From: an uncultured Lachnospiraceae bacterium
GTDB lineage: Bacteria; Bacillota; Clostridia; Lachnospirales; Lachnospiraceae
Length of the DNA stretch: 32,097 nt
Direction of reading: 5' to 3'
Assembly: GCA_946538525.1 (NCBI GenBank)
Contig: CAMNGU010000016.1
Span: 1-32,097, forward strand
Numbering within the stretch: the stretch's first letter is position 1; each line of letters starts with the position of its first letter. Shown in pieces: positions 1 through 22,658 of the stretch. The translations under genes were made by a program, and so were the position numbers. The notes beneath the pieces were generated by a model, which did not search any database, was not told the origin of the DNA, and worked only from the letters and a program-made list of their open reading frames with translations.

Positions 1-3000
1 AACATTTATTTTTGCTAATAATTCATTATTTTTGCTTTGCAAATTATCATTAGAAGTATTTAATTCACGCAGTTTTTCTTCTGTTTCTTTTAGTTTTTTA
101 GTAACTCTTTCAAGTTCAGCCTTTTTCCTTTCGTTTTCCTGATATATTCTTTTTATTTCATTATCCTTAGATTTGATTTCTTTTTTTTGAGAATCTAATT
201 TGGCATAAATCCCAGTTAATTCATTCTTATATTCTTCATTTTGGGAAGAGTAATCGCTTATTTCTTTTTTAGTTTTGCTTATTTCTTCTGCATGACATCT
301 AATAATTTTATCTTTCTCTAAGAGTTCCTTTTTTAATCTATCTTTTTCTTTTAATAAAGACTCAATTTTATCATCGATTTCATCCTTATCTTTTTTGTTG
401 ATTTTCTTATTTAGATTCGTTACATAAGATGATTTTTGATAATCCGTTGCACTATATACTTTTTGGCACTCAGTCGATAACTCCCTAGCCCGCTTCATCC
501 ACTCTTTTCTATTCATTGCTGCACTTGAATTAATTAGAGAATTAATACGCTCAGTCATCGTCATTTCTTTAACGATTCTATTTACATTTACAATATCCTC
601 ACTAAAGACCACATGTTTTTCTACAATGTCTTCAGATATATCTTTCTCCACAATATATCTATAAATATTAGAAGTTTCTATACTTCTATACAGGTTTTCC
701 CTTTCTTCTATTTCAAATTTATCCCCACCAAACAAATGATTGCTCTTTATTTGCAGAAGTTCTATATATTTTATACATTTATTAAAATCAATATCCTCGT
801 TTATTTTTTTTAAATATATATTAAATAGCCACTTGATAACCCCATTGCTGTTATTTATAACCCCCTCAAAGCCATCTGTTATTTTATTTAAATTTGAAAT
901 GTGTTTTCCATACATAAACGCATACCAGGTATTAAAGATAAAACATTTATATCTCTCACCGATATCTGAATAATAATCTATTTCAACATATTTAGAATAA
1001 CTTGAATTTTCATGAATTGCTTTATACACCTCATTAAAATATAATTCTAAATCATCTTTTTCAAAATCTAGCGCATTCCAAACCGAATACTCTTTTCTTT
1101 TTATTTCAAAACAAAAATACACCCTTTGATGATATGACTTGATTTTATTCCAAACTGTTACAATGATCCTATTTAGCCCTCCTGTAGAAACCACACAAGC
1201 AGAATCATTCGCCAACATACAAACACGCTTAATTATGTCATCTGTTATCTCATCATCATTCACTTTATCTACTATAATGCCACATAACTTATCCTCACTA
1301 ATGGAAATAAAATCACCATCAGCTTGATTTTGAGATGCACATAGTAGCAACAAATCTTCAACACTGCTTTTTCTCCAACCATCTACAACTTCATTGTTTT
1401 TTACTTCCGAGACATAATCATCATATTTCTTTACTAATTCGTTACTTATTTCATTTCTTTTCATATCAATCCACACATCAAATGTGCTGTTATTTTCATT
1501 AAATAACTCTTTGGAGTAATTTTTAAAAGTATCAAAAACAGTCTCAAAATATAAATTAGCGAGTCTATTTTCCATTTCACTGATTTCAGTTAAAATGAAA
1601 CCAAACTCCTCATTTATTCTGTTAATAATACCTTGTCGAATTAATGAATACCATTCTTCTCTTAACTCATATTCAATAAAATAATTTGTAACATAGGTTC
1701 TCTCAGAGTTTTCGAAATCAAAATAAGCAGAAATAGCTTTCTTCATAATCATATCAAGCTGATTTTTTCCAGTTACTGCATAACCATATTCCTGAACAAA
1801 GCGAAGAACACCATTTGTTTCAAGTCCGCAGATTTTTTCATTGATTTGATTTTCTGAAAACATTTCTCGGCTAATTTTTTTTCTCATCTCAAATGGAAGA
1901 TCATCCTTTTTTATCGAAAAGGATTCCCAGTCATAAGAGACTATATCTTCAAGAATAATCTGCGCATTTTGTAGCAAAAGGCCATCTTCCAAATGTTCAT
2001 TACGATTGAGTGCTTCAACTATCACATTAGTCCATAAACTATCAGCATTTGGAAGTTTTTCAAATTTCCGAATATTTTCCATAAGAAATTCTCTAGTATC
2101 GGACGAGGTTGATGCCATAGCAATAACACCATCAATATTTCGATTATATCCCTTTTCTATCTCTTCAATTGTTATTACATCCGATTCATCTAGCCTCGAA
2201 CTATAATATGCTTTATTTATTGATTGAATGGTAATATTAGAAGGATCCATGCCTTGTATAAGAAAAGACATAAACTCCCTATATGAGTCTAACGATTCAA
2301 ACATCCTATGTGATAGTTCAATAAAAACATCTAAACCACTTAACGTATTTTGCGAATTTAAATTCAAAGAATTATCTATTAACTGTTCGTCTTCCGAAAA
2401 AACAAACCTCGCTACCCCTACATTATCATGGGTATTTACCGCATATGTGATTTTTTTTATATAATCACTATAATCAGCACCAAATCCAGATATTAAGCAA
2501 GCCACAATATAAATTATATCTCTAGCAGAATTACTAAGACCCTTCTGTGATATCATTTTCTCCGATGGAACGATCAACAGTTGCGCATCCTGCCCTAAAA
2601 CAACCCCAAAAACTTTGTTTATGAAAACTGCCAGTTCCGATTCATCAAAATACATCGAGACCAATTCTCGAATCATAGTTTCAGAATAAATGGAAGGAAC
2701 TTCAACAGGCTCTAAAACCACAGCCTTTCTATAGTACTCACCATTATCCTTTATAAAATATCGACTATAGTATTCTTCATATCCAATAAGATATTTACTA
2801 TAATCCCCTAAAATCTGCTCCTTATCTAATACATTTTGAGTTTTAGGAATCATAAGCTGAATTAATCTATTATTTGGTCCTCCACCATACCAATTCGGTT
2901 CTGGTCCTACCTTTGCAACATAAAAGCAATTCAATGAATCCGAGAACAATAAGAATTCAGCACTTTTCCCGCCTATTTCAGTCTTAAATTTCCCACCTAA

Positions 3001-3117
3001 ATCCATACACTCATCTATAAAATCTTTGTTAGTATCACTTGAAAAAGCGACCCCCTGCCCCTCTCTTCCAAAGCACAAATCTTTTCCTCTAGAATAAAAA
3101 GCTATATCGTATACCAT
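1..3117 (-). CDS. GAP1-like GTPase-associated protein (partial, runs off left edge)
   Basis: An uninterrupted minus-strand frame of 1039 codons starts at ATG 3117 behind AGAGGA and is still open at base 1, so the C terminus lies outside the window. Residues 1-100 hold an N-terminal block (FYSRGKDLCFGREGQG, then YGGGPNNRLIQLMIP near 75-90). Residues 125-230 hold an alpha/beta block with VPSEKM and a SNSARDI...ITYAV stretch. Both resemble the N and M regions of the GTPase-associated protein 1 family. The middle is helical and acidic. From about residue 930 to the window edge it is a Lys/Glu-rich coiled coil. It is the third gene of an operon, 29 bp after the GTPase gene, which fits a GTPase-partner role in a predicted conflict system. 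Family assignment is by recalled pattern, not a search. The reading frame is certain; the function is inferred. The missing C terminus may carry the effector. Confidence 0.8.
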   Translation of the reverse strand, partial: MVYDIAFYSRGKDLCFGREGQGVAFSSDTNKDFIDECMDLGGKFKTEIGGKSAEFLLFSDSLNCFYVAKVGPEPNWYGGGPNNRLIQLMIPKTQNVLDKEQILGDYSKYLIGYEEYYSRYFIKDNGEYYRKAVVLEPVEVPSIYSETMIRELVSMYFDESELAVFINKVFGVVLGQDAQLLIVPSEKMISQKGLSNSARDIIYIVACLISGFGADYSDYIKKITYAVNTHDNVGVARFVFSEDEQLIDNSLNLNSQNTLSGLDVFIELSHRMFESLDSYREFMSFLIQGMDPSNITIQSINKAYYSSRLDESDVITIEEIEKGYNRNIDGVIAMASTSSDTREFLMENIRKFEKLPNADSLWTNVIVEALNRNEHLEDGLLLQNAQIILEDIVSYDWESFSIKKDDLPFEMRKKISREMFSENQINEKICGLETNGVLRFVQEYGYAVTGKNQLDMIMKKAISAYFDFENSERTYVTNYFIEYELREEWYSLIRQGIINRINEEFGFILTEISEMENRLANLYFETVFDTFKNYSKELFNENNSTFDVWIDMKRNEISNELVKKYDDYVSEVKNNEVVDGWRKSSVEDLLLLCASQNQADGDFISISEDKLCGIIVDKVNDDEITDDIIKRVCMLANDSACVVSTGGLNRIIVTVWNKIKSYHQRVYFCFEIKRKEYSVWNALDFEKDDLELYFNEVYKAIHENSSYSKYVEIDYYSDIGERYKCFIFNTWYAFMYGKHISNLNKITDGFEGVINNSNGVIKWLFNIYLKKINEDIDFNKCIKYIELLQIKSNHLFGGDKFEIEERENLYRSIETSNIYRYIVEKDISEDIVEKHVVFSEDIVNVNRIVKEMTMTERINSLINSSAAMNRKEWMKRARELSTECQKVYSATDYQKSSYVTNLNKKINKKDKDEIDDKIESLLKEKDRLKKELLEKDKIIRCHAEEISKTKKEISDYSSQNEEYKNELTGIYAKLDSQKKEIKSKDNEIKRIYQENERKKAELERVTKKLKETEEKLRELNTSNDNLQSKNNELLAKINV

Positions 3118-3146
3118 AAAAATCCTCTTAACACCTTTCCAGAATA

Positions 3147-5135
3147 TCACTCATCCAATAATATTGAAATACAATTAAATAATGCATCACCTATTCTGTA
3201 TGGAATCCAATCAAAACCATCTCTATCATATTCTTCTTCTATTTTTTCTAATTTCTGTTGAAGCCCTGTAAGTTCAAGTTGCATTTCGTCATTGCCCCTA
3301 TTTTCATCTTGTTCTAATGCTTTTGTTAGGCTCTCAATTTTGCTTTGAATTATTGCCAACTCCTCTGCTTTATCACTAAACGCCCCCGAACTAACCAGAC
3401 TCCAATGAACATTATTCTGTCTCTTCTGTATATCCCTTATATTTATCTCTGTATCATTTCCAAAAACCCGCTTAGCCACAAGTACTTCTTCTATTTTTGC
3501 ACTTCTTTGAGAATCATTTTCCACTTCAAAAGCTGGATTATTATCATCTAAATTCCCTCTTATGTCCATCAATCCCTTAAATTCATCTACTCCAATCAGC
3601 ATATCCGCTTTCGAAATAATACCTTCAAAACACTTATTATTAATCACAATATTTTTTCTACCACCATATTGTGTAATAACTCTTTTTATCGTTTTATATA
3701 TTCTGAATATTTCTCTTGATCTTACGCCATTAAAACTTGTTATTAATTCCTCTCCTTTTTTTGAGAGCCCCTTAATGTTTGCATTCCTTTGCATATCCCC
3801 CTGTTCTTCTAATCCCAATATCTTATATGTTGGAATTAATATATCTGCAGGAAAGAAGACAAAATACGCAAATGCATCAAGTATTTGCTCAATAATATAT
3901 GTGTCTCTATTCTGTTCTATTTGGGCAAAATTTTCACCAGGATAATCAAAAAGCCCTATAGTAAAAATATCCTTATAACTATCCCCTATTGTTTTTCTGA
4001 CATTGATAAAAACAGGAGTTGGAAGTTCACTAGGAGGAGTCTGAACTGTTGGAATTCCACTTGTTAGTAATTCCACATTCTTACCCCAATATGCATACAC
4101 AGGATCAGAGCTATCAAATTGGTTATAATCAGTAACCAACTCTATATTTTCTTTACAAATATTATTGCTAAACAATTCTTCTTCTATACCAGCAAGAATT
4201 GCAGAAGTATATGTGGTTTTTCCACTATGGGTACCTCCAATCATTACTATTCTTTTTATGTCACTATCATTTTCTATAAATCCCGTCGGAAGTCTCATGC
4301 CACACCCCGTACAACACGGAAATACATCTATACAATCTGTATCTCTATTATTAATTTCATATGAAATTCTTTTATAGCCATTACCATCCGAAAAAATATT
4401 TCTCTTTAGTACCATCAACTTCTTATCTGCTTGATTGTTTTTTCGTATAAAATAAATAAGTTCATTAAATTTTTTCAACCCATTTTCTTCACCCGAACTA
4501 ATCAAGTAATATCTAGGCCTAGTATGGTCAGTATGAACCCTTCTGCTCACCCCATCAAACACCCCAGAATTAATCAGCTCATCTATGCTACCCTCTTTTA
4601 TAAATGAATCTGCTCCTTTTAGTGGATTCTTGTCATCCCCAGAAAAAAGGATTGTTTTCGTCTTAATATCATTCCAATCATAATTATTCCCAACAATGGA
4701 TAATTCAAACGAGAGATTATTCAATCTCTGTGTACAATATGGACACCTTTTATTCTCATATCTAGCATAGAACACCTCCAGTTCAGACTCATCCTCATCT
4801 ATATACTGAGATTTAGTCCCGCTATTCCTACCATTTTCTTTCATTTGCATGGTACTATTTTTTCTTTTTTTATCTGCTTCTCTATTATTATCCGTAGCCT
4901 CATCACCCACATCAGCCCATCCAAAATTTTCGTTATCGCCTTCAGTGTCCCCCAGCGAATTATAAATCCCCTCGATCTGCTTATTAATCACATCAATAGA
5001 TTTTTGAATTTTCTTTCTCTGGTCGTTCTCTAGCTCCTCATCCGAGAGAGAAGCATAGAGTTTATCTCTCTGTTCAATATACTTATTCAAAAGCTCCCTT
5101 AAACCACTTGTATTTCCATTATCATTTGTTCCCAT
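3147..5135 (-). CDS. zinc-ribbon P-loop GTPase (double-GTPase/DO-GTPase-like)
   Basis: This is a 662-residue cytosolic protein with ATG behind GAGGAGG. The P-loop GGTHSGKTT lies at residues 300-308 (G1), DYPGEN at 397-402 (G3, DxxG), SKAD at 508-511 (G4) and VSSGAF at 581-586 (G5), so it should bind and hydrolyse GTP. Residues 1-60 and 588-637 are charged helical or coiled coil; 60-120 is low complexity. Two cysteine knuckles, CPYC (131-134) and CCTGC (274-278), could form one zinc ribbon split by about 140 residues. Only one clear nucleotide fold is visible, although the DO-GTPase class it recalls was named for two. It sits between the coiled-coil gene (24 bp upstream) and the GAP1-like gene (29 bp downstream), so the three are very probably one transcript. 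The GTPase call is firm; the subfamily is from memory. Confidence 0.88.
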   Translation of the reverse strand: MGTNDNGNTSGLRELLNKYIEQRDKLYASLSDEELENDQRKKIQKSIDVINKQIEGIYNSLGDTEGDNENFGWADVGDEATDNNREADKKRKNSTMQMKENGRNSGTKSQYIDEDESELEVFYARYENKRCPYCTQRLNNLSFELSIVGNNYDWNDIKTKTILFSGDDKNPLKGADSFIKEGSIDELINSGVFDGVSRRVHTDHTRPRYYLISSGEENGLKKFNELIYFIRKNNQADKKLMVLKRNIFSDGNGYKRISYEINNRDTDCIDVFPCCTGCGMRLPTGFIENDSDIKRIVMIGGTHSGKTTYTSAILAGIEEELFSNNICKENIELVTDYNQFDSSDPVYAYWGKNVELLTSGIPTVQTPPSELPTPVFINVRKTIGDSYKDIFTIGLFDYPGENFAQIEQNRDTYIIEQILDAFAYFVFFPADILIPTYKILGLEEQGDMQRNANIKGLSKKGEELITSFNGVRSREIFRIYKTIKRVITQYGGRKNIVINNKCFEGIISKADMLIGVDEFKGLMDIRGNLDDNNPAFEVENDSQRSAKIEEVLVAKRVFGNDTEINIRDIQKRQNNVHWSLVSSGAFSDKAEELAIIQSKIESLTKALEQDENRGNDEMQLELTGLQQKLEKIEEEYDRDGFDWIPYRIGDALFNCISILLDE

Positions 5136-5159
5136 TACTATTAATCCTCCTCAAACTTT

Positions 5160-6119
5160 TTATATATATATGTCAAATTCTAGACTTTTCAATCCCTCTT
5201 TGAGTTCAATATGATATCTGTTGTTGTTATACTCACTGCATATAATATCCTTAACGCCATTACACTTTATACTTTCTAGAAGTTCTATAATATGAAAATA
5301 TTTACTATCTTTCCCATTATCTTGAGGCATCATATCAACATAAAACATAACACTTTTTTCGAAGTTTTCTATTATCTTACTTATTTCATTTACCACTCCT
5401 AATTTTACGCTCGCATATTTTTTATCCTCTTCATAGAAAACACTATAATCTCCAATGAAAAAATGTTTATCCTCCTTATGCGCCTTACGAACCAACCTTT
5501 GATTAATTACGCCATATATTTCCTTCCCACAATACAAAACCTTTTTACATTCTTCTGCATTATTCTTTATCACAATATTATGTATTTCAATTTGTGGAAT
5601 AAATATCCCCTTAACTCTTTCTTTATATTCCTCTATTTCATTAATTAATCTATTCCCATCCTCTTCAATAGACATCCTAATTCCTTTAATTGAAGATATT
5701 GCTTTCTCAATTTCACTAAGATCTTTTTCTATTGTTTTTATTTCCCTATAATAATCTTCATCTCTAAAAAACAGTTTATTTAAATCCATTATTCTGGTAT
5801 ATTCATTAACCACATATTTGTTATACACCATCTTTATCGAAGCAAAGATTTCTCTATACCCAAAAAAAGCTTCATATAATGTATCAATTTGAGAATTCAT
5901 ATATCTATAAAGATTTATCTCATTAACTATCTCTTCTTTCTTCTCAATAAACTCGTTTATTTCATTATATTCAGTAACCAACTCATTTATTAACTCGTTA
6001 ATCCTCAGGCACAACACCCAGCTCTCCTCTTGAATCTCATGTCGTTCCTTGGCAATTTTATCTTCACCATACTTCTCAATAAGCAATTTTCGATAAGCCA
6101 GATTATCTTTTCCACCCAT
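5160..6119 (-). CDS. coiled-coil protein of unknown family, first gene of the GTPase operon
   Basis: I do not recognise this family. The frame is also open from a TTG at 6125, but ATG 6119 with GGGG 10 bases upstream is the better start (319 residues). Residues about 20-185 are almost wholly helical with heptad spacing and many Lys/Glu. Residues 190-319 look alpha/beta, with short strands (IFIPQIEIHNIVI, FFIGDYSVFY, MFYVDMMP). There is no signal peptide, membrane helix or metal motif. It is the promoter-proximal gene, 24 bp before the GTPase gene. This position suggests an adaptor, sensor or target-recognition partner, but that is inferred from context alone. A TATAAT-like hexamer on the minus strand at 6171-6176 may be its -10 element; no convincing -35 was seen. 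Confidence 0.8.
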   Translation of the reverse strand: MGGKDNLAYRKLLIEKYGEDKIAKERHEIQEESWVLCLRINELINELVTEYNEINEFIEKKEEIVNEINLYRYMNSQIDTLYEAFFGYREIFASIKMVYNKYVVNEYTRIMDLNKLFFRDEDYYREIKTIEKDLSEIEKAISSIKGIRMSIEEDGNRLINEIEEYKERVKGIFIPQIEIHNIVIKNNAEECKKVLYCGKEIYGVINQRLVRKAHKEDKHFFIGDYSVFYEEDKKYASVKLGVVNEISKIIENFEKSVMFYVDMMPQDNGKDSKYFHIIELLESIKCNGVKDIICSEYNNNRYHIELKEGLKSLEFDIYI

Positions 6120-6221
6120 AAACAAACAACCCCGTCAATCTTTATGAATTATCCCCAACAACACTTGTTAATTATATCATATTTTTCGCTTATATACATT
6201 TATATTTTATGCATTATATCC

Positions 6222-6259
6222 AAAAAAAGTTCATCCATGACACCTTTCGGTGCCATGGA
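6222..6259 (-). terminator. factor-independent terminator after the 6316-7497 gene
   Basis: On the minus strand an 11-bp stem (6249-6259 with 6234-6244, including one G-U pair) closed by a GAAA loop is followed by a run of seven T (complement of 6222-6228). It separates the membrane-protein unit from the GTPase operon downstream, so that operon probably needs its own promoter in 6120-6221. Confidence 0.75.
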
Positions 6260-6315
6260 TAGATATTGTTACAGCTAAATTTCCGGAGGTATTATTAACA
6301 ATATGAAAACAACAC

Positions 6316-7497
6316 TTACTTATAACAAAGTATTCCACTGTTATTCTCATTTACTCTCGAAAAGAGAAGTTTATTCTCTGGCTTAATCTTAATCTCATTA
6401 AGTCTACCATTATAAATAGAATCAACTGATACTTCTCCAAGATTACTCTTTCCTTCATTTTTATAGATGCACATTCTGCAAACCTTCTTTGTATCAGGAG
6501 ATATTTTTTCTTTCTTATAATCATCTATCTTTGAAGCATATGTAGAATGCCCATTTGCATTACTAAGCTTATCATATTCTGTGCCATCCACCTTTGCATC
6601 GAAGAACTCTATCTCTGCATTTTGATTAGTCTTATTCTCTACTAATAGTGTTAGATAATAATATCCATCATCTGTATAGTACTCATAATCAAGATAAGAA
6701 ACCTTAATATCGTCCGTATCTAACACAACATCCGGTTTTGAATAAACATTCATTTCTTTTGCCACTCTGTCACCAGCAATCATTGAATAGTTAAGCATAC
6801 AATTGGTATATGTTGACACTTCAGGGTTTTCATCAGAAAGATTATCTACACTGATTCCAACACCTAATTGAGTCCACACTCCACTATCTGCCGCAATATA
6901 TTTGCATATATCATCCCAAGGACCAAGCCCAAGATCCTTGCCTTCAATAGTGTATGACAGAACCACATTTTCTCCGTGACTAACCCTATCTACAACATAA
7001 TTATATTTTAGATCAAGATTATTATTATCAATATCTACTCTAATCCCATTAATCACGAAATAATCAGCCTTCACATTATATTCAGCAGAACTATCGTTCT
7101 GAACTACTATATTTATCTTCAAGGCATCTATTTTTGATCCATCTATTTCGCTGTAATACAAATGACCAAGATTCACACTGTCAAGTTTGATATTTAACGC
7201 ATCTGCATTATATAAATTCTTGCCAAAATAAATATAGTCGTCTTTCACAAAATCCAATGAACCATCATGGAAATCCAGATTAACGGCGCAAGTCTGTTCA
7301 TTATCAGTCTGTCCACTTACCAATTCGTTCTTCTTTGCAGCATCCTTTTCTTTTCTTTCCTTTTCTTTAGTTTTCTCCTTGGATACTCCAAGAATAATTA
7401 CCATAACTATAAGGAGCATCGTTGCTACTCCAAGCATTTTTCTTACCACTTTTATTGTAGAACTACTACTAAAAAAATTTGACATAGTTTTCTTCAT
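6316..7497 (-). CDS. membrane-anchored extracellular protein, unknown function
   Basis: This is a 393-residue protein with ATG 7497 behind AAGGAGG. Residues 18-38 form one hydrophobic helix (MLGVATMLLIVMVIILGV) after a short basic start, then a Lys/Glu-rich stretch (39-60) and an exported domain. The rest is beta-rich, with two similar blocks around residues 95-185 and 245-350. Each has an alternating pattern such as YYYLTLLVENKTN, recalling DUF4352-type immunoglobulin-like domains. No catalytic motif was recognised. It lies 63 bp after the XRE gene on the same strand and ends before a strong terminator, so the two are probably a regulator-target pair. It could be a lipid- or wall-proximal sensor, but nothing in the sequence decides this. 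Confidence 0.8.
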   Translation of the reverse strand: MKKTMSNFFSSSSTIKVVRKMLGVATMLLIVMVIILGVSKEKTKEKERKEKDAAKKNELVSGQTDNEQTCAVNLDFHDGSLDFVKDDYIYFGKNLYNADALNIKLDSVNLGHLYYSEIDGSKIDALKINIVVQNDSSAEYNVKADYFVINGIRVDIDNNNLDLKYNYVVDRVSHGENVVLSYTIEGKDLGLGPWDDICKYIAADSGVWTQLGVGISVDNLSDENPEVSTYTNCMLNYSMIAGDRVAKEMNVYSKPDVVLDTDDIKVSYLDYEYYTDDGYYYLTLLVENKTNQNAEIEFFDAKVDGTEYDKLSNANGHSTYASKIDDYKKEKISPDTKKVCRMCIYKNEGKSNLGEVSVDSIYNGRLNEIKIKPENKLLFSRVNENNSGILCYK

Positions 7498-7560
7498 AAG
7501 GCATTATCCTCCTTCATAGATATAATTTATTTGCACATTTTTATTAAAGCATGATTGCCT

Positions 7561-7839
7561 TTATTCTCTTGATGAATTATCCATCACAAATCCACTTTCC
7601 TTTGTGACTATGATATCCTCAACCTTTATGGTACGATTAAGTCTGAGTTCAAATAGCTTTGCAAGATTAAGAAGATTATCTATTGAAGGTAAACTTCCAC
7701 CTTTTTGCCACTTATATATCGTCTGAGGAGATTCAAAATTGAAAGCTTCTTGTATATCCTTTACCGACATCTTCGATTCTATGCGAAGTTCATATATTCT
7801 TTTTCCAGTTTCCAACATATCAATCATCTGCATATTCAT
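7561..7839 (-). CDS. XRE/Cro-family helix-turn-helix regulator
   Basis: A 92-residue protein whose residues 12-66 are a complete HTH_3 fold (GKRIYELRIESKMSVKDI, then the recognition helix around SPQTIYKWQKG, then LPSIDNLLNLAKLF). No extra ligand domain is present; residues 67-92 are a short tail. The start ATG 7839 has an excellent GGAGGAG site six bases upstream. It is the first gene of a unit with the membrane protein at 6316-7497 and lies about 220 bp beyond the terminator of the next unit. Autoregulation is usual for such small XRE proteins, but no clear dyad was found at its promoter. Confidence 0.85.
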   Translation of the reverse strand: MNMQMIDMLETGKRIYELRIESKMSVKDIQEAFNFESPQTIYKWQKGGSLPSIDNLLNLAKLFELRLNRTIKVEDIIVTKESGFVMDNSSRE

Positions 7840-7877
7840 TTCTATCTCCTCCTCTCTTCTTGCTATACTAATGTTCT

Positions 7878-7905
7878 ATCATACTTTTCATCCTCTAATG
7901 GTGAA
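7878..7905 (-). promoter_or_regulatory. candidate sigma-A promoter for the XRE unit
   Basis: On the minus strand TTCACC (complement of 7900-7905) and TATGAT (complement of 7878-7883) are separated by 16 bases, about 40 bases before the XRE start codon. The -10 matches consensus at five of six positions and the -35 at four of six. In such AT-rich DNA this is only suggestive. Confidence 0.35.
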
Positions 7906-7964
7906 CCCATTTTTTTCTAACATATATTTTTTTGCAAAATGTATCGTTTTGATATATAAATTAA

Positions 7965-8018
7965 AAAAAGCTCATGTTTCTCAATCCAACAAATAAGATT
8001 GAGAAACACGAGCTTTTT
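7965..8018 (-). terminator. strong factor-independent terminator after the 8065-8994 gene
   Basis: A 21-bp stem with a single mismatch (arms 7965-7985 and 7998-8018) and a 12-base loop. On the minus strand it is followed by a run of T (complement of 7963-7969). Both outer arms are A/T runs, so it may work in both directions. Confidence 0.85.
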
Positions 8019-8064
8019 CACTCCAGCTAACAAAACTGTTCACTCAAATGTAGAAACAATATAT

Positions 8065-8994
8065 TTATTTATTAGCATATTTTATTATTGCCCAACAACC
8101 AATAAATAACAGTGCAATATAAACGACAATAATTTTATTACCAAACACTCTTCCTAATAAATTATATAATACACTGCCTATTATGATCAAAATCAAAACA
8201 AAATGCACAAACAACTGTATATCATGAGCCCTATCATACGACTTATATAAATCAGAAAAATTATCTTTTACCATAGAAACAGCATTCCATTCACCTGAAA
8301 AGCAGTCATACGAACAAAAATAGTTAACAAAACAAACAAGGAGCATCGCCCAATGCACAATAATATATACTATGTAATATAGAATCCCTTTAGGTTCTAA
8401 AAAACGGATATTATCACCAAAATTTAGAAACATAAGAACCATAACATCAATAAACACTATAGAAGAATTAATTATATTTACAATCTTAGCGGATGCTATT
8501 CCATCATTTTTATAGTCCGTAATAATAAGATTAAACAATTCGTTAATACCCATAATACACAAACTTAAAAAAAGTCCATTTCTAGTCATTTTCCAGAACG
8601 GCGGTCCAACCGAAAGCAATTTTATATTTTTCCACGCAATCAAAAGCCATATAACCGACAATGTCAGGGCATTGATATTTATTAAAACCCCAGATTTTTT
8701 TATTATTTTCTTATCTTCTTCAAACGAATATAAATAATCCCTCTCTTCAACTTCAACCGATGTACCACCAACCATGTTATCATTTCTTTCTTCAAATGAT
8801 TTTTCTTCTCTCATTTGAAGCTTCTGGACATAAGAAACATATATCTTTTTCGTTTCCTCATCGAGTTTTTCAACACAAAAAAATGAATCTTCAAGAATAT
8901 TAAACCCACAAATACCACATATTCCCAAATCCATCTCACTTATTGCATTACCACACTTAGGACATATACAATTAGCTTCCTCTAGATTTATCAT
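8065..8994 (-). CDS. zinc-ribbon membrane protein, unknown function
   Basis: A frame opens at a TTG at 9015, but ATG 8994 with AAGGG eight bases upstream is the likelier start (309 residues). The N terminus is a small zinc ribbon: CPKCG at 11-15 and CGICG at 26-30. A charged cytoplasmic linker (35-90) follows. Then come about six hydrophobic helices near 95-115, 122-145, 160-182, 192-216, 248-275 and 283-304. This layout, an N-terminal zinc ribbon plus a polytopic membrane domain, is common in Firmicutes proteins of unknown role. It is a single-gene unit bounded by its own terminator. Codon use is as AT-rich as the neighbouring accessory genes. No transport or enzyme signature was seen. Confidence 0.82.
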   Translation of the reverse strand: MINLEEANCICPKCGNAISEMDLGICGICGFNILEDSFFCVEKLDEETKKIYVSYVQKLQMREEKSFEERNDNMVGGTSVEVEERDYLYSFEEDKKIIKKSGVLININALTLSVIWLLIAWKNIKLLSVGPPFWKMTRNGLFLSLCIMGINELFNLIITDYKNDGIASAKIVNIINSSIVFIDVMVLMFLNFGDNIRFLEPKGILYYIVYIIVHWAMLLVCFVNYFCSYDCFSGEWNAVSMVKDNFSDLYKSYDRAHDIQLFVHFVLILIIIGSVLYNLLGRVFGNKIIVVYIALLFIGCWAIIKYANK

Positions 8995-9246
8995 TAGATC
9001 ATCCCTTATTTTCAATATATATATGAATTAATGTTATTCTCGTATGTTACCCATATTCTACCACTTACAGATAATTCAATAAAGTTGCTTTTCTTATATG
9101 TCATTACATCTTATTGCAAGAATACAATTTATAAAAATTAGGTTCATACATTTCAAACCTTTATTTTTTTATAATAGAGTTAGATTTATCATTTCAATTT
9201 AAGGATTTATCTGGAATACTATTATATGGAATGGAGATATGAATTT

Positions 9247-10254
9247 ATGTACAGTTATCCTTGGTTAGCAAATTGGATCCGATTCAAAAGAATCGGTAAC
9301 AACAAATACAGAGTATACAACTATCTTTTCGATAAGAAATATATTCTCACAAAAGAATCAGTCGATAGATTAAGAATGCTCGATGGTGACACCGATCCCT
9401 TAGATATTTATTCTGATTTATCTGAAGATGAGGTATATGATTTAATCGAAAAGTATGAACAGGCAGGACTGATCAGAAAAGGACGATTTCTTATAAAGAG
9501 TTTTCCTACCATTAATTATACTTTGTTCGTTCCTCAAAAAACTAAAACAACCAGAAAAATATGTAAAGCGCTTAACCTAATTATCCTTTTATCCTGGTTA
9601 CCACTTTTCGCAGTCGGACTTTACTCCTTCTTCAATACTAATTCTTGGCTGATGGGATACGTTGATAATTACGAAATGCAGTTTATCCTTGGATATATAG
9701 TTGCTATTTTATTAGGACTATCTTTACACGAGATTTCTCATACCATCAGCTGTTTTGCATATGGAGGAGATGTTTTTGAATTCGGAGTAATGTTAAATTT
9801 TATTATTCCTGGAGCATATATATTAACAAACGAAAAAAAAATTAAGAATCGTTTTAGTCTTATACAATTATTTGCCGCTGGAATAGAAATGAATTTCCTT
9901 ATTGCAGGAATTAGTTTTCTATTAATGCCGCTATATTATTACTCACTTTCAATGTTCTTCTTTACTATAGCATTTATGAATTCTCTTCTAGGATTATTCA
10001 ACCTAGTATTAACAGGTTTTCTAGACGGACAACGTATATTCGAAAAAGCATTTGGTTATTGTGGAAAAAATTCCTTATTTGACTCTGTCGAAGTAATCAT
10101 CCATTCCAAGAGGACTCGAAATAGCCTTAGAAAAAAAGGGATTGATGGCAAAGCAACTATCATTTTCTCTTACATTCTATTTTCATTTAAATTAATGATG
10201 CCAATCTTTATACTAACAGATATTATAATCATTTTATTCGGGTATATACTATGA
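9247..10254 (+). CDS. M50-type intramembrane zinc metallopeptidase with PqqD-like N-terminal part
   Basis: The frame opens at ATG 9226, but ATG 9247 has GGAG ten bases upstream and is preferred (335 residues). Residues 1-90 look like a small winged-helix/PqqD-like domain (KYRVYNYLFDKKYILTKE..., then EDEVYDLIEKYEQAGLIRKG), as found in peptide-processing M50 proteins. Membrane helices follow. Helix two carries HEISH (residues 161-165, two His zinc ligands and the Glu), and a later helix carries NLVLTGFLDGQ, matching the M50 second motif with its Asp ligand. It should be an active membrane protease. The next gene overlaps by ATGA. In other genomes such proteases mature peptides or act on regulators; no precursor peptide gene was seen here, so the substrate is unknown. 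Confidence 0.85.
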   Translation: MYSYPWLANWIRFKRIGNNKYRVYNYLFDKKYILTKESVDRLRMLDGDTDPLDIYSDLSEDEVYDLIEKYEQAGLIRKGRFLIKSFPTINYTLFVPQKTKTTRKICKALNLIILLSWLPLFAVGLYSFFNTNSWLMGYVDNYEMQFILGYIVAILLGLSLHEISHTISCFAYGGDVFEFGVMLNFIIPGAYILTNEKKIKNRFSLIQLFAAGIEMNFLIAGISFLLMPLYYYSLSMFFFTIAFMNSLLGLFNLVLTGFLDGQRIFEKAFGYCGKNSLFDSVEVIIHSKRTRNSLRKKGIDGKATIIFSYILFSFKLMMPIFILTDIIIILFGYIL

Positions 10255-10655
10255 ACAAGATAAATCAAAGCAATAAAAAATTCAGCAATACATGGTTTCT
10301 ACTAACTATTATTCCAGCTTTCTTTTCGACATATGGAAGCATTTACAGAAACATTATTTTAATACTATCATCCATAATTATGACCTTTTTATTGGTTATA
10401 ATAATTCCTTTCTGTAGAAAACGAGAAAATCTCTGGATGTTTTTATTTCATGCATTCATCAGCATTCCTACTAATATTTTACTTGCCAAAAACATTGGGT
10501 ATTATTATGCTTATGAAATATTAGAATTCAAAGTATTTTTTGTACCTTTTTCAATATTTTTTTTCTTCGTAGTTTTATCTATCGAGGAAGTCATTATCTC
10601 AATAATAACTAGAGCTATTTGGCGTAAACAGAAGAGAACACTTCTGCCTGATTAA
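10251..10655 (+). CDS. small four-helix membrane protein coupled to the M50 peptidase
   Basis: A 134-residue hydrophobic protein with predicted helices near 14-27, 33-55, 60-79 and 93-117 and a basic C-terminal tail (RAIWRKQKR). Its ATG overlaps the peptidase stop as ATGA, so translation is coupled and the two probably act together. An Glu-Glu pair at the end of the last helix (SIEEVIISIITR) recalls CPBP-type proteases, but the spacing to Arg is wrong and the other CPBP motifs are absent, so I do not call it one. A partner, immunity or chaperone role for the peptidase is inference. Confidence 0.75.
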   Translation: MNKINQSNKKFSNTWFLLTIIPAFFSTYGSIYRNIILILSSIIMTFLLVIIIPFCRKRENLWMFLFHAFISIPTNILLAKNIGYYYAYEILEFKVFFVPFSIFFFFVVLSIEEVIISIITRAIWRKQKRTLLPD

Positions 10656-10763: not shown

Positions 10764-13280
10764 TTAATCTATATTACTCTCTACCCCATTAACCTTGATG
10801 ATAAACTTTGTCTTTGCTTTCATATCTCCTCTTGCACCACCAAAGGTTTGATAATCCTTGGCAGCTTCCTTGATACTATTTACATTATCAACAAAATCAT
10901 TTACGCCGTCTTCTGTCTCATTCAGTTTATCCACCAGCTTATCAGTTGCATCCTGCAGTTCTGATGCGCCACTATTAAGAGCTGAACTGTTGGCTGTCAG
11001 TGTATCTGTTCCTGACTTCAGGGTTCCCACTCCATCTTTCAATGTCTTTGTTCCATTATATAGAGTTTCAGAACCACTCTTCAACTGACTCATTCCACTC
11101 TGAAGAGTACCTGCTCCAGTATCCAGCTGTGACAGTCCGTCGCTTACCTGACCGGCGCCAGATGCAAGAGAGGTAGCTCCTGTTGAAAGAGTTGTGGCTC
11201 CTGTTGAAAGGGTAGATGCTCCATTTGAAAGAGTTCCAAGTCCTGTAGTAAGTGAAGCAGATCCATCTGCCAAACTCTGTGTTCCAGCTTTAAGTGTATC
11301 CAGCTTAGTAGAAAAGCTTCCCATAGCTTCCCCAACTTTACCTAAAGTAACCTGTGATCCAGCTGAAGCATAAGCATTTGCCACATTTGATACAGCACCT
11401 GTAAATGAATCTCCTGCAAATCCAGCTTTAACCTGATCTGTGTACTTGCTGAACTCTGTTAAGTAAGTCTGATACTCTTCTGCATAACCAGCACCATATC
11501 CTGTACAATATGCATTTCCATAACCATCTCCATAACCAGCCTGATAGATACTATTTACCATTGCATCTGCTGCTGCCTCTGCTGTAGCCTGAGCTGTCGC
11601 CTCGTCGTATCCAGCCTCTACATACTGAGCTGTAAGTCCTGCAGCTATCTGAGCCTTAACTCCTACCAACGCATCCGCATTTGTTGAACCTGTATAACTT
11701 GCTGCTCCAGCTGCAGATGCAGCATATCCTGCAGCATTTGAAGCCTGTCCTGCTCCAGCCGCCTGAGCCGCCGACTGAACGGCAGCGGCGCCATTTACGC
11801 TATAATCCACAACCTGACTTACTGTATTAGTACTAACTGCACCACTTACCACATTCGTTACCGCTGTTCCAACATATGTTGAAGTATCTGCACCGAGAGT
11901 TGATTCAGCTGTGGACTTGATGGCAGATTTAGTTGCGTCATCAACCGCTCCACTGGCCATGGTTGTTACATCCGGAAGCTCTATAGCCTGAACAGCTGTG
12001 TTGAGCTCAGCAGCTCCATCACTTATCTGTTTGGCTCCACTATATGCATTATTTGCCCCACTGGACAGTTCTTTTGCTCCATTTGACAGTTCTTTTGCCC
12101 CACTGGACAGGGATGATGCACCACTGCTCACCTGTTCAGCTCCAGAATAAGCAGAATCCAGACCACTCTTTATAGTGTCCGCTCCAGAAGCAGCACTTTC
12201 AATTCCACTCTTAAGTGATCCCGCTCCCGAATATAGGGTTTCGCTGCCACTACTTAGGGTATTTACACCACTTGCCACCTGATCCACGCCATTTGTATAT
12301 TCTGAAATGCCATTTACCAGACTATTCATGCCATCCTGGTATTCACCAGCAAGATCATTTATCTCCTTCTCAGCATCACTTATATCAATCTCGTCGTCTC
12401 CAAGAGTTTCTATACTAGCAACAGTAACCGTCATCCCCAGCTGGAAATCTGTGGCATCTGCTTCCACTTCGAAGTAATCTGGAAGGTTAATATCTTCCTC
12501 ATCAAGATCAAGACTTTTTGACATTCCCGGCATTCCATAACCAACCGCAATATATCTTGAACCATCTGAGATAACCTTTGCATTTGTAGCGGTAACATTT
12601 GCAAAGTTCTCCATATCCAGAGACATACCTGTAGCCATAACAAATGGTGTATATACATCTCCGTTTCTGGCGGTATTATCATAATCATATCTGATCTTTA
12701 CATGTCCAGACTTTCCAGATAACTCTTCAGGGCTAATCTCCTTATCATCCAGATAGTAAGTTACTTTAACCGATACAGGAGCAGCTTCATCGCTATGTCC
12801 TTCATAATAGATATCAGCACCATTGGCGGCCCAGGTAAGCTTTGTTCCATCTTGGGTAAATGATTCATCACCCTTTACATTTTCTATATCATTTAGTCTG
12901 CTCACATCAGTCAGTTCATCTTTACCTTTCGGATTCTTCAACCACTCATCAACTATGGTATCCTGTACATTTCCATTAGCATCGGAAATGATATAAACAG
13001 TCTCTTCTTTATCTATATCCTCTGCATCAGTTGAAGTTCCCAGTCCAAGACTATTTGTTATAGCATCAGTTAATTCTTTTTCATTTTTAGTCTCGCTTTC
13101 TTTCTCATCCTGTTCTGCTTGAACCCCTTTTGAGTTAATCACAGAAGCAGTATCAGCACTACCACATCCAGCCAAACCTGCAACCATGAGAATACTCATA
13201 GCTGCTGCAATTTTCTTTTTTGAATTTATATTATATGAACTTTTCTTATTAACAATATTCTTATTATCAATATTTTTCAT
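10764..13280 (-). CDS. heptad-repeat (YhgE/Pip-like) surface lipoprotein
   Basis: An 838-residue exported protein; ATG 13280 follows AAAGGAAG. The signal peptide ends in a lipobox LAGC at 36-39, so Cys39 should be lipidated. Residues 90-300 form a folded domain (YIISDANGNVQ..., VTYYLDDKEISPEELSG..., GYGMPGMSKS). Two blocks of seven-residue repeats of the SLSSGAK/TLSTGAT type span about 317-425 and 664-775, as in YhgE/Pip-like proteins. Between them is an Ala/Gly/Tyr-rich region (GYGDGYGNAYCTGYGAGY). There is no C-terminal membrane domain, unlike full YhgE. It follows the MMPL gene by 47 bp and ends at a terminator, so it is probably the extracytoplasmic partner of that exporter. A stiff rod spanning the cell wall would fit, but that is inference. 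Confidence 0.85.
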   Translation of the reverse strand: MKNIDNKNIVNKKSSYNINSKKKIAAAMSILMVAGLAGCGSADTASVINSKGVQAEQDEKESETKNEKELTDAITNSLGLGTSTDAEDIDKEETVYIISDANGNVQDTIVDEWLKNPKGKDELTDVSRLNDIENVKGDESFTQDGTKLTWAANGADIYYEGHSDEAAPVSVKVTYYLDDKEISPEELSGKSGHVKIRYDYDNTARNGDVYTPFVMATGMSLDMENFANVTATNAKVISDGSRYIAVGYGMPGMSKSLDLDEEDINLPDYFEVEADATDFQLGMTVTVASIETLGDDEIDISDAEKEINDLAGEYQDGMNSLVNGISEYTNGVDQVASGVNTLSSGSETLYSGAGSLKSGIESAASGADTIKSGLDSAYSGAEQVSSGASSLSSGAKELSNGAKELSSGANNAYSGAKQISDGAAELNTAVQAIELPDVTTMASGAVDDATKSAIKSTAESTLGADTSTYVGTAVTNVVSGAVSTNTVSQVVDYSVNGAAAVQSAAQAAGAGQASNAAGYAASAAGAASYTGSTNADALVGVKAQIAAGLTAQYVEAGYDEATAQATAEAAADAMVNSIYQAGYGDGYGNAYCTGYGAGYAEEYQTYLTEFSKYTDQVKAGFAGDSFTGAVSNVANAYASAGSQVTLGKVGEAMGSFSTKLDTLKAGTQSLADGSASLTTGLGTLSNGASTLSTGATTLSTGATSLASGAGQVSDGLSQLDTGAGTLQSGMSQLKSGSETLYNGTKTLKDGVGTLKSGTDTLTANSSALNSGASELQDATDKLVDKLNETEDGVNDFVDNVNSIKEAAKDYQTFGGARGDMKAKTKFIIKVNGVESNID
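11173..11235. repeat. three tandem 21-bp units inside the heptad-repeat lipoprotein gene
   Basis: Units at 11173-11193, 11194-11214 and 11215-11235 differ at only a few bases. Each encodes exactly one seven-residue repeat of the lipoprotein. They are the most DNA-similar part of a longer repeat block and suggest recent slippage or duplication there. Confidence 0.8.
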
Positions 13281-13327
13281 ATTGCATCTTCCTTTCTTAC
13301 TTGAAATCTCTTAAAACCATTCACTCC

Positions 13328-15442
13328 CTAATGCTGGAACAGCATTCTATGATGATGTTTCTCGTTATTATCTTTTACTTTAACTTCATCAAAACCAGCT
13401 GTGGAATATACGATCACTTTATCGAATACCAGCAGCACTGCAGGCAGAAGCAGAATAACAACGAACATACTGATGATTGCGCCTCTAGCCATCAGGATAC
13501 AGAGTGAACTGATCATATCTATCTTGGAATACAGTCCTACACCGAAGGTAGCGGCGAAAAATGAAAGTGCCGATACAAATATAGAATTAATAGAGCCTTC
13601 TAATGCAGTAGTTACTGCGTCCCTTCTATCAAAGCCACCGATTCGTGCTGTTTTATACTTATTTGTCATCAGTATCGCGTAATCAACCGTTGATCCCAAC
13701 TGAATAGTTCCAATTACGATAGAAGCTACAAAAGGTAGAACAGCTCCTGTGTAATGAGGTATTCCCATATTGATAAATATCGCGAATTCGATAACTGAAA
13801 CAAGAAGGATCGGAAGAGAGACCGACTTAAATACGAAGATAATGATTAGTGCAACTAAAACTATTGATACCGAATTAACAATATTAAAGTCGTGGTCAGT
13901 TACCTTTATGAGATCCTCAGTACACGGAGCTTCACCTATCAACATTCCCTTAGCATCATACTTATCTACAATGTCATTTATCTTATCGCACTGTTCATTT
14001 ACTTCATCAGATGCAACCTTATATTCTGACATTACGAATAGAAGCTGATACTCTCCATCATCAAGTATATCTACTATCTTCTCTGGCATCATTTCTCTTG
14101 GAAGCCCTGCTCCCTCAAGCGCCTGAATACCTAAAGTAGTTTTAACGCCATCAACTGCATTTACTTCATTTATAAGATTTCTTACTTCTTTATCTGAAAG
14201 GTTAGAATCCAGCAGAATCATATGCGTGGATGCCATGCCAAATTCTTTCTCAAGCTTCTCATTTGCCTGAATACTCTCAAGTTCCTTAGGAAGTGAACTA
14301 TCCAGATTGTAATAAACCTTATTATGTTTCTGACCATAATATGCAGGTACAATCAGTACCGCAAAGATTATCAGGAATATATAAAAATGTTTCACAATCC
14401 ATGGACTCAACTTAGAAAAATCCGGCACCAAAGGTTTATGCTGTGTCTTCTCTATAGCCTTATCGAAAATGAGTACCATAGAAGGAAGTACTGTCACACA
14501 GCAGATAACTCCAAGTACAACTCCCTTGGCCATAACAATTCCCATATCAAGCCCCAATGTAAAACTCATGAAGCAGAGCGCTACGAAACCTGCAACAGTT
14601 GTGATGGAACTACCGATAACGGATACTAAAGTCTTATCTATAGCAACTGCCATAGCATCTTTTTTATCCTCAAACTCATTCTTCTCTTCACAGTAGCTGT
14701 GCCACAGGAAGATTGAATAGTCCATAGTTACTGCCAGCTGAAGTACTGCCGCCAGTGCCTTAGTTACATAGGATATTTCACCTCTGAAAATGTTACTACC
14801 CATATTGTATAGAACTGCACATCCTATACTGAGCAGAAAGAATACAGGTATAAGATAAGAATCCATAGTGAGCATAAGTACGATGAGACAAAGCGCAACT
14901 GCTATTGCAACATATATTGGCACCTCATGATCACTTAGATTTTTTGTGTCGATTACAACTGCGGACATTCCGCCTATATAAACACTCTCTCCTGCAATCT
15001 CTCTAATATCTTCCACCGCTTCAAGGGTTTCATCTGCAGAAAGAGTCGTATCATAGAATACCATCATAAGCTGAGCATCGCCCTGCTTTATAGTATCCTG
15101 TAATTCTTCAGGAAGCAGTTCAATCGGAACTGTTCCATTTGTAGCTGATGCATAGGAAAGAACTCTCTCCACATGATCAACCTTCTCAATCTTTTCCGCT
15201 AACCTTGCTATATCCTTATTGGGAAGCCCTTCCACGACCACCATGGAAAATGCTCCTGTTCCGAAATCCTCAGCAAGAATATCCTGACCCTTCATAGTCT
15301 CAATATCCTTTGGAAGATATGTGAGAATATCATAATTTGTTCTGGTTTTCAGGTATCCAAAAGCTGATGGAATCAGTAGGATGACGGCAAGTATTAATAT
15401 CGGAATTCTAAGTTTAACTACCAGCTTGCCAAATTTCATCAT
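13328..15442 (-). CDS. MMPL/RND-superfamily exporter
   Basis: A 704-residue polytopic membrane protein with the duplicated RND/MMPL layout. It has one helix at 12-30, an exported loop domain to about 175, five helices to about 335 including GSSITTVAGFVALCF, a single helix near 350-370, a second exported domain to about 525, and five more helices to 690. ATG 15442 or the next codon follows AAGGAGGG. Family members use proton-motive force to export lipids, peptides or other hydrophobic compounds; the substrate here is unknown. It is followed by the repeat lipoprotein after 47 bp. An imperfect dyad upstream (15531-15564) may be the binding site for a regulator such as the TetR protein at 16615. 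Confidence 0.92.
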   Translation of the reverse strand: MMKFGKLVVKLRIPILILAVILLIPSAFGYLKTRTNYDILTYLPKDIETMKGQDILAEDFGTGAFSMVVVEGLPNKDIARLAEKIEKVDHVERVLSYASATNGTVPIELLPEELQDTIKQGDAQLMMVFYDTTLSADETLEAVEDIREIAGESVYIGGMSAVVIDTKNLSDHEVPIYVAIAVALCLIVLMLTMDSYLIPVFFLLSIGCAVLYNMGSNIFRGEISYVTKALAAVLQLAVTMDYSIFLWHSYCEEKNEFEDKKDAMAVAIDKTLVSVIGSSITTVAGFVALCFMSFTLGLDMGIVMAKGVVLGVICCVTVLPSMVLIFDKAIEKTQHKPLVPDFSKLSPWIVKHFYIFLIIFAVLIVPAYYGQKHNKVYYNLDSSLPKELESIQANEKLEKEFGMASTHMILLDSNLSDKEVRNLINEVNAVDGVKTTLGIQALEGAGLPREMMPEKIVDILDDGEYQLLFVMSEYKVASDEVNEQCDKINDIVDKYDAKGMLIGEAPCTEDLIKVTDHDFNIVNSVSIVLVALIIIFVFKSVSLPILLVSVIEFAIFINMGIPHYTGAVLPFVASIVIGTIQLGSTVDYAILMTNKYKTARIGGFDRRDAVTTALEGSINSIFVSALSFFAATFGVGLYSKIDMISSLCILMARGAIISMFVVILLLPAVLLVFDKVIVYSTAGFDEVKVKDNNEKHHHRMLFQH

Positions 15443-22537: not shown

Positions 22538-22658
22538 AATATCTTCCTATTCTATTTAGCGTTTCTATTTAGCCGCTTTTATTTAATGCTTTTACTATTT
22601 TTACATATATGAATTTTAGAATATCATATTTCGAGGGACAGTTATAGAGCCCCTTAGT

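Follow-up and report, generated by a model that had tools for sequence, protein, structure and literature searches.

According to Kaur et al. (2020, PMC7159879), GAP1 is typically encoded downstream of the DO-GTPase gene in GTPase-centric systems, N-terminal zinc ribbons occur in 60% of DO-GTPases, two paralogous GTPase copies are present in 38% of systems, and GAP1 of the firmicute tubulin-type systems is extended at its C terminus by a polar region. Here, we analyzed a 32,097-bp stretch of DNA (the window) from an uncultured rumen Lachnospiraceae bacterium (GenBank assembly GCA_946538525.1, contig CAMNGU010000016.1; G000:C16 in our genome sets). ORF calling places three closely spaced minus-strand open reading frames (ORFs) at the left end of the contig; they encode a 319-aa protein, a 662-aa zinc-ribbon GTPase, and a large protein of at least 1,039 aa, and lie where the original prediction had placed a three-gene conflict system composed of a coiled-coil protein, a DO-GTPase relative, and a GAP1-like partner. 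The 319-aa and GTPase genes are separated by 24 bp, and the GTPase and large genes by 29 bp. Base 1 of the window is the genuine contig start (G000:C16:1), and because this end is an assembly break, the large ORF is incomplete; the source genome comprises 2.63 Mb in 187 contigs and is 80% complete. The sole orthologous locus found belongs to the Lachnospiraceae metagenome-assembled genome RUG12891 (G342:C145, CACZRU010000145.1, 14,275 bp; the sister locus), in which the large protein is complete and has 1,098 aa.

The GTPase is probably a divergent zinc-ribbon DO-GTPase

The zinc part of the GTPase contains the motifs CPYC (residues 131 to 134) and CTGC (residues 275 to 278), and the nucleotide-binding part contains G1 (GGTHSGKT, residues 300 to 307), G3 (DYPGE, residues 397 to 401), G4 (SKAD, residues 508 to 511), and G5 (SSG, residues 582 to 584). 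These elements, already named in the original prediction, can be read directly and are identical in the window and sister orthologues. The two CxxC pairs lie about 140 residues apart and form an N-terminal zinc ribbon with predicted metal binding, and the Walker B glutamate of the DO family (DxxGE) is present within the G3 motif of both orthologues.

The reference profile comprised seven DO-GTPases, two each from loci L044 and L027 and one each from L024, L054, and L062, all from loci found with the Pfam families DO-GTPase2, GAP1-N2, and GAP1-M; the L027 pair is without zinc ribbons, and the other five references have them. The window and sister GTPases matched this profile in hhalign with a probability of 97.1 and an E value of 7.1e-11 over 128 columns, compared with probabilities of 8 to 53 (E values of 1.4e-4 or worse, 16 to 59 columns) for nine P-loop controls and of at most 0.9 for column-shuffled queries (60 shuffles). 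The zinc knuckle and P-loop alone gave a probability of 92 to 93, and the part after the P-loop alone gave 41. The CxxC/P-loop/DxxGE layout was carried by eight distinct proteins among 483 ORFs (duplicates included) of the loci examined, namely, the five zinc-ribbon references, the GTPase of a tubulin-type locus (L084), and the sister and window GTPases, with a mean of 0 in 20 shuffling rounds. The CxxC pairs of the L084 GTPase likewise lie far apart, at positions 51 and 297.

Several results speak against this assignment. When the part after the P-loop was compared with the five zinc-ribbon references, the probability was 4.3, with G4 and G5 aligned in register. Single-reference probabilities (0.6 to 72.6 for the seven) overlap those of the nine controls (0.5 to 76.8), and because single references score no better than controls, the family signal rests on the profile; direct comparison of the L084 and window GTPases gave a probability of 2.8. 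The Pfam cutoffs for DO-GTPases were not passed (PF19975, 13.8 bits versus 27; PF19993 unlisted), and a PF19993 search of the source genome at an E value of 0.001, in which 39 of 63 candidates were scored, did not recover the window GTPase. The AlphaFold model of the G domain was uninformative (mean predicted local distance difference test [pLDDT] score, 33.4). Several candidate matches were discarded: P-loop matches of the GTPase to TrbB/VirB11 (E values of 0.003 to 0.08) and PF19993 matches confined to residues 2 to 25 were regarded as noise, and by eye, a PF19993 match elsewhere in the source genome (C14:28566-29189, 22.5 bits) is an ABC-type ATPase and a candidate in genome G347 is a TrmE-type GTPase.

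The controlled profile-profile comparison and the motif layout nevertheless lead us to place the protein among the zinc-ribbon DO-GTPases as a divergent member, a call made with moderate to good confidence, and to this extent the relationship first proposed for it stands, albeit not at Pfam thresholds. With zinc-ribbon DO-GTPases (PF19993/PF19975) it shares a zinc knuckle just before the P-loop, DxxGE, a KxD-type G4, and a large partner gene directly following, in line with the profile-profile E value of 7e-11. Its position below the Pfam cutoff of 27 is shared by references L054 (21.2 bits) and, marginally, L024 (26.7). It differs in the wide CxxC spacing, in a heptad segment near the C terminus, and in being a single copy (the operon in the window and the sister contig each have one GTPase); a second copy is not obligatory.

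The large protein resembles GAP1 only in position and layout

Between the two genomes, the large protein is constant over its first ~900 residues, and its C-terminal ~140 residues are poorly conserved, polar, and coiled-coil-prone. With the second-highest of 20 shuffle maxima taken as the threshold, a simple heptad score of the window protein lay above it at residues 498 to 525 and 999 to 1029; segments above threshold were also found in the GTPase (residues 585 to 613) and the 319-aa protein (residues 112 to 146), and the score of the sister large protein stayed under its own threshold. In both loci, the large gene directly follows the DO-GTPase-type gene, as GAP1 typically does.

The GAP1-like character attributed to this protein was not borne out by Pfam, our own hidden Markov models (HMMs), shuffles, or hhalign. 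No Pfam GAP1 family matched at E values up to 1 for the large protein or up to 5 for its sister orthologue, and PF20013 and PF20014 had no match in the source genome. In a search with a custom HMM built from 12 GAP1 N+M regions, members scored 201 to 456 bits and the best background row scored 5.0 bits, and among the best 60 rows the large protein appeared as a fragment (L002 copy) with 1.9 bits (E value, 4.8). The reverse search with the N-terminal part returned one GAP1 gene (L035/L046) in its first rows at noise level (E values of 0.93 to 1.4). Of 919 scored shuffles, 118 scored as high as or higher than the GAP1-M-like segment against an M-only HMM. Local hhalign comparison with GAP1, whole and trimmed, gave probabilities of at most 1.8, and laxer settings (mact of 0.01 to 0.05) produced longer alignments at unraised probability. 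The tubulin-type locus in genome G314 has in its GAP1 position a protein that fails the M test too (109 of 1,000 shuffles made score as well), so failure here is no proof of unrelatedness. By eye, the stretches FYS...G.G..FSSD and YIKKITYAVNTHDN look like stretches of GAP1-N and GAP1-M. Coiled-coil matches to SMC/Rad50, to LmuB/Druantia/Zorya models, and to PDB coiled coils were rejected as noise, as was a PHROG of unknown function on residues 156 to 234 (E value, 0.0097). From these comparisons, the large protein appears to resemble GAP1 in position and layout only.

The sister locus has the core genes and lacks the 319-aa gene

The sister contig encodes, in order, an OmpA-domain protein, a vWA membrane protein, a small ORF, a helix-turn-helix (HTH) protein, a 393-aa-like protein, the GTPase, the large protein, an 849-aa protein, a 254-aa protein with one transmembrane (TM) segment, and a final TM protein cut by the contig end. 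Nucleotide similarity to the window spans the HTH gene through the large gene, and the loci diverge upstream of the HTH gene. The gap between the GTPase and large genes is 28 bp, 1 bp shorter than in the window. Amino acid identities are 85% (HTH), 88% (393-aa protein), 75% (GTPase), and 75.6% (large protein, residues 1 to 900), and the ratios of nonsynonymous to synonymous substitution rates (dN/dS) are 0.13, 0.12, 0.25, and 0.24 (first 900 residues), respectively. These identities and ratios indicate that the GTPase and large genes are real genes under purifying selection and no chance ORFs; by the same measures, the pair evolves faster than the linked HTH and 393-aa genes. The two loci have in common the GTPase and large genes as well as the HTH and 393-aa genes linked to them. 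The set extends beyond the three genes first proposed: an 849-aa gene and two TM-protein genes follow on the sister contig, and such further downstream genes probably belong to the shared part.

The 319-aa gene was found in the source genome only (1 of 61 genus genomes). In the sister locus, almost exactly its coding region is missing, and both flanks are conserved; its last ~11 codons and stop have a counterpart just before the GTPase gene, a tract that a deletion may have left behind or that may be intergenic sequence of ancestral origin. The 319-aa protein has no Pfam, PADLOC, NCBIfam, PHROG, or PDB relative above noise, in agreement with the original statement that it matches no named family. 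As the gene is an orphan that the sister operon lacks, the three-gene system does not hold; the gene seems to be no conserved core component and looks dispensable.

The vWA membrane protein of the sister locus matches PF00092 (44.2 bits; cutoff, 23.8), and the OmpA-domain protein, a lipoprotein by eye, matches PF00691 (E value, 4.1e-8) with a vWA match under the cutoff (PF13519, 20.3 versus 27); neither gene adjoins the operon in the window. The 849-aa and TM proteins have no family above the cutoff, PADLOC gave weak, coiled-coil-like scores only, and neither tubulin nor a recognizable GAP1 was found among the eight sister proteins scanned.

The GTPase and its partner are rare and adjacent

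The GTPase was found in 2 of 61 genus genomes (source and sister), in 1 of 299 family genomes (source only), and, by profile search of 329 phylum genomes, in the source genome plus one marginal short match. The large-protein profile matched the source genome and gave four marginal short matches in 341 class genomes; the genus, family, class, and phylum sets overlap, and the counts are not additive. Of the two scans of genome contigs for the locus, one returned nothing and the other a single locus, that of the sister. The four short large-protein matches (E values of 9e-4 to 9e-3, two of the loci being L055 and L056) and the GTPase-profile match, which lies near the C terminus with an internal stop inside, were rejected as noise. 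Searches of plasmids, phages, and viral contigs returned no match to the GTPase, large, or 319-aa protein, so no mobile-element origin was seen, and reference GAP1 and GTPase queries had no matches in plasmids. Within the sampled family, GAP1 is itself rare (PF20013, 0 of 150 genomes; PF20014, 1 of 299); in the class, PF20013 matched 11 of 245 genomes. The GTPase and large genes are adjacent in both genomes having them (2/2); homologues lying apart or in housekeeping contexts, one of two outcomes that would have spoken against a dedicated system, were thus not seen, and the other, the lack of a GAP1 match, was.

Related loci in the genus

At least three other GTPase-centric loci occur in the genus, in genomes G312 (GAP1-N1), G310 (HSP70 theme), and G314 (tubulin). 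The last (G314:C23, L084/L085) encodes a tubulin (PF13809; E value, 1.9e-40), vWA genes, and a GTPase with widely spaced CxxC pairs, a degenerate P-loop, and DIPGE; this GTPase and the neighboring 788-, 193-, and 459-aa proteins have no meaningful Pfam match, nor does the probable GAP1 of the locus match GAP1 in Pfam. The firmicute tubulin theme is like the window and sister loci in the spaced CxxC pairs, in a related vWA protein (25 to 27% identity), and in the polar C-terminal extension described for the GTPase partner in PMC7159879. However, the P-loop is canonical in the window GTPase, and tubulin, GAP1, and FNIII are unrecognized in the eight sister proteins, which include an OmpA-domain protein instead. 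The tubulin theme has a pair of vWA genes, one of them encoding several TM helices; the sister contig has one clear vWA membrane protein and the OmpA-domain protein with its vWA match under the cutoff.

The GAP1-N2 HSP70 theme (L024 and L054 in G310; L044 in G586) combines zinc-ribbon DO-GTPases with a large GAP1-domain protein. The G310 locus encodes a GAP1-M protein and a nuclease: a DNA/RNA nonspecific endonuclease (L054:9328-10155 on G310:C23; PF13930; E value, 1e-22) lies directly after the GAP1-M gene and is a possible effector candidate. In the GAP1-N1 locus (G312, L027), a DO-GTPase is followed by a large partner gene, as in the window, but there are two small GTPases without zinc ribbons and a GAP1-N1 domain (PF20012; E value, 5.7e-29).

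The vWA membrane protein of the sister locus matches 32 of 61 genus genomes at an E value of 1e-8; among the matches listed, near-full-length relatives occur only in G326 (37% identity) and G314 (25%), the rest covering mainly the vWA domain. In G326 (L083:8422-13995, G326:C33), the gene set consists of OmpA-domain, vWA membrane, TM, and transglutaminase-like genes. The transglutaminase resembles one in DO-GTPase locus L044 (E value, 5.6e-15).

Features of the window

The coordinates of the operon and linked features are collected in Table 1. The 319-aa ORF has an alternative TTG start at position 6125 (321 aa), and the sequence of the terminator-like hairpin is mostly kept in the sister locus by pairwise alignment. 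The GC content of the three operon genes is 0.29 to 0.34, versus 0.38 for window positions 10764 to 32097. The window had no RNA family at the gathering score and no tRNA, and positions 1 to 9300 had no tandem repeats.

Table 1. Operon genes and linked features at the left end of the window
Feature	Position	Strand	Basis
Large GTPase-adjacent protein, at least 1,039 aa, open at contig end	1..3117	-	ORF from ATG 3117; complete 1,098-aa orthologue in G342
Zinc-ribbon GTPase, 662 aa, probable divergent DO-GTPase	3147..5135	-	Motifs; hhalign; layout signature
Orphan 319-aa protein, coiled-coil-like segment, apparently optional gene	5160..6119	-	ATG 6119; G000 only; absent from G342
TATAAT box, possible operon promoter, kept in G342	6171..6176	-	Pairwise alignment; consensus reading only
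Terminator-like hairpin between 393-aa gene and operon	6232..6261	-	13 pairs, loop of 4, T-run
393-aa protein, one N-terminal TM segment, linked gene	6316..7497	-	88% identical in G342
92-aa HTH regulator, linked in both genomes	7561..7839	-	PF01381, E value of 7.4e-8; 85% identical in G342

Directly upstream of the HTH gene, positions 8065 to 9015 (minus strand) encode a 316-aa protein that has CxxC pairs at its N terminus as well as hydrophobic segments; its place is taken in the sister locus by the vWA membrane protein gene. On the plus strand, facing the other way from the operon, positions 9226 to 10655 encode an M50-type membrane peptidase homologue (PF02163; E value, 3.5e-11) and a small hydrophobic ORF that overlaps it. 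At positions 10764 to 15442 (minus strand), the gene for an 838-aa lipoprotein-like protein with, by eye, many repeated SG-containing motifs adjoins an MMPL transporter gene (PF03176; E value, 8.8e-53). Positions 20756 to 26516 (minus strand) encode an HSP70 homologue (593 aa) beside a 1,285-aa TPR protein whose N terminus matches a J domain weakly, below the cutoff (E value, 5.6e-4), a pair that recalls the HSP70/J-TPR theme of GAP1-N2 systems; the G310 gene set includes HSP70 and GrpE-like genes. Because the window pair lies ~15 kb from the GTPase with unrelated genes between, we excluded the HSP70 from the system.

Discussion

Our preferred reading, to which we would give about an even chance, is that the locus is a lineage-restricted, fast-diverging accessory operon built on a GTPase switch, a variant of the predicted GTPase-centric kind. 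A conflict function is plausible. Since the operon is sparse, fast-evolving, low in GC, and beside an HTH gene, a conflict or envelope-damage response is most likely over housekeeping. Under such a scheme, the large protein would do the job of GAP1: it would bind the GTPase, link the GTP/GDP state of the latter to an event being sensed, and relay the signal so that a coiled-coil or membrane-linked complex is assembled. The 319-aa protein would be a variable, optional accessory partner, and the OmpA-domain and vWA membrane proteins of the sister locus might tie the complex to the envelope, with the operon serving a conflict or envelope-damage response. We would go a step further only tentatively, to an undescribed class in which a split-zinc-ribbon DO-GTPase has replaced GAP1 by a large partner of unrelated origin and acts with interchangeable coiled-coil parts (the C-terminal extension and the optional 319-aa protein) and envelope-anchored vWA/OmpA-domain sensors, the switch being constant and the partner modular. 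The original conflict-system prediction is half right in its central claims: it is supported for the GTPase, unsupported by sequence for GAP1, and does not hold for the three-gene set.

Beyond the weak points of the GTPase assignment, a variant GTPase-centric operon is called into question by the lack of a significant sequence relation between the large protein and GAP1 in any comparison made, and the AlphaFold model of its residues 1 to 430 (2 sequences) had a mean pLDDT of 34.5. Only two loci are known in all, and no FNIII, effector, or second GTPase was recognized among the eight sister proteins scanned, where contig ends may hide genes. The ~39 kb listed for G326 holds the vWA/OmpA pair and no GTPase of this layout; the pair may therefore be unrelated to the GTPase, and the vWA link is suggestive only.

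It is possible, though we think it rather unlikely, that the large protein is genuinely a GAP1, of type N2, diverged past sequence detection, which would make the locus an ordinary GAP1-N2 system near the firmicute tubulin theme. Its gene position directly after a DO-GTPase relative, the polar extension described for tubulin-type GAP1 in PMC7159879, the similarly matchless GTPase and neighbors of the same-genus tubulin-type locus, the L035/L046 hit in the noise-level reverse search, the by-eye likeness of two stretches to GAP1-N and GAP1-M, and a beta-rich start followed by helices in the very-low-confidence AlphaFold model all fit such a GAP1. However, its score in our N+M HMM lies under the best background row, its M-like segment does no better than shuffles, hhalign gave next to no probability, and FNIII and tubulin are unrecognized in the sister proteins. 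An envelope or cell-shape GTPase operon with no immune role, in which GTPase and scaffold act with wall-binding proteins, is somewhat more doubtful still; the OmpA-domain and vWA membrane proteins of the sister contig, the strong conservation of the linked 393-aa gene with its TM segment, and the occurrence of the vWA/OmpA pair beside a transglutaminase-like gene in G326, with no such GTPase nearby, agree with it, but a very sparse distribution, a fast-changing C terminus, and an optional gene would be unusual for envelope housekeeping. That the 319-aa protein is a core subunit lost from the sister genome, whose system would then be incomplete, seems improbable: the ~11-codon counterpart is what a deletion remnant would leave, but it can also be ancestral intergenic sequence next to an inserted gene, the remaining genes of the sister block are intact ORFs, and a single one of the 61 genus genomes has the gene, though just two of them have the GTPase.

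DO-GTPase systems are predictions, and none of the titles and abstract openings listed by our literature searches reports an experiment on such a DO-GTPase or GAP1. A tractable model would be offered by a compact variant that has a canonical P-loop, a single GTPase, and a single partner, together with the natural operon pair with and without the coiled-coil gene. The locus further suggests that divergent members of such systems escape the current Pfam models, even inside a single genus.

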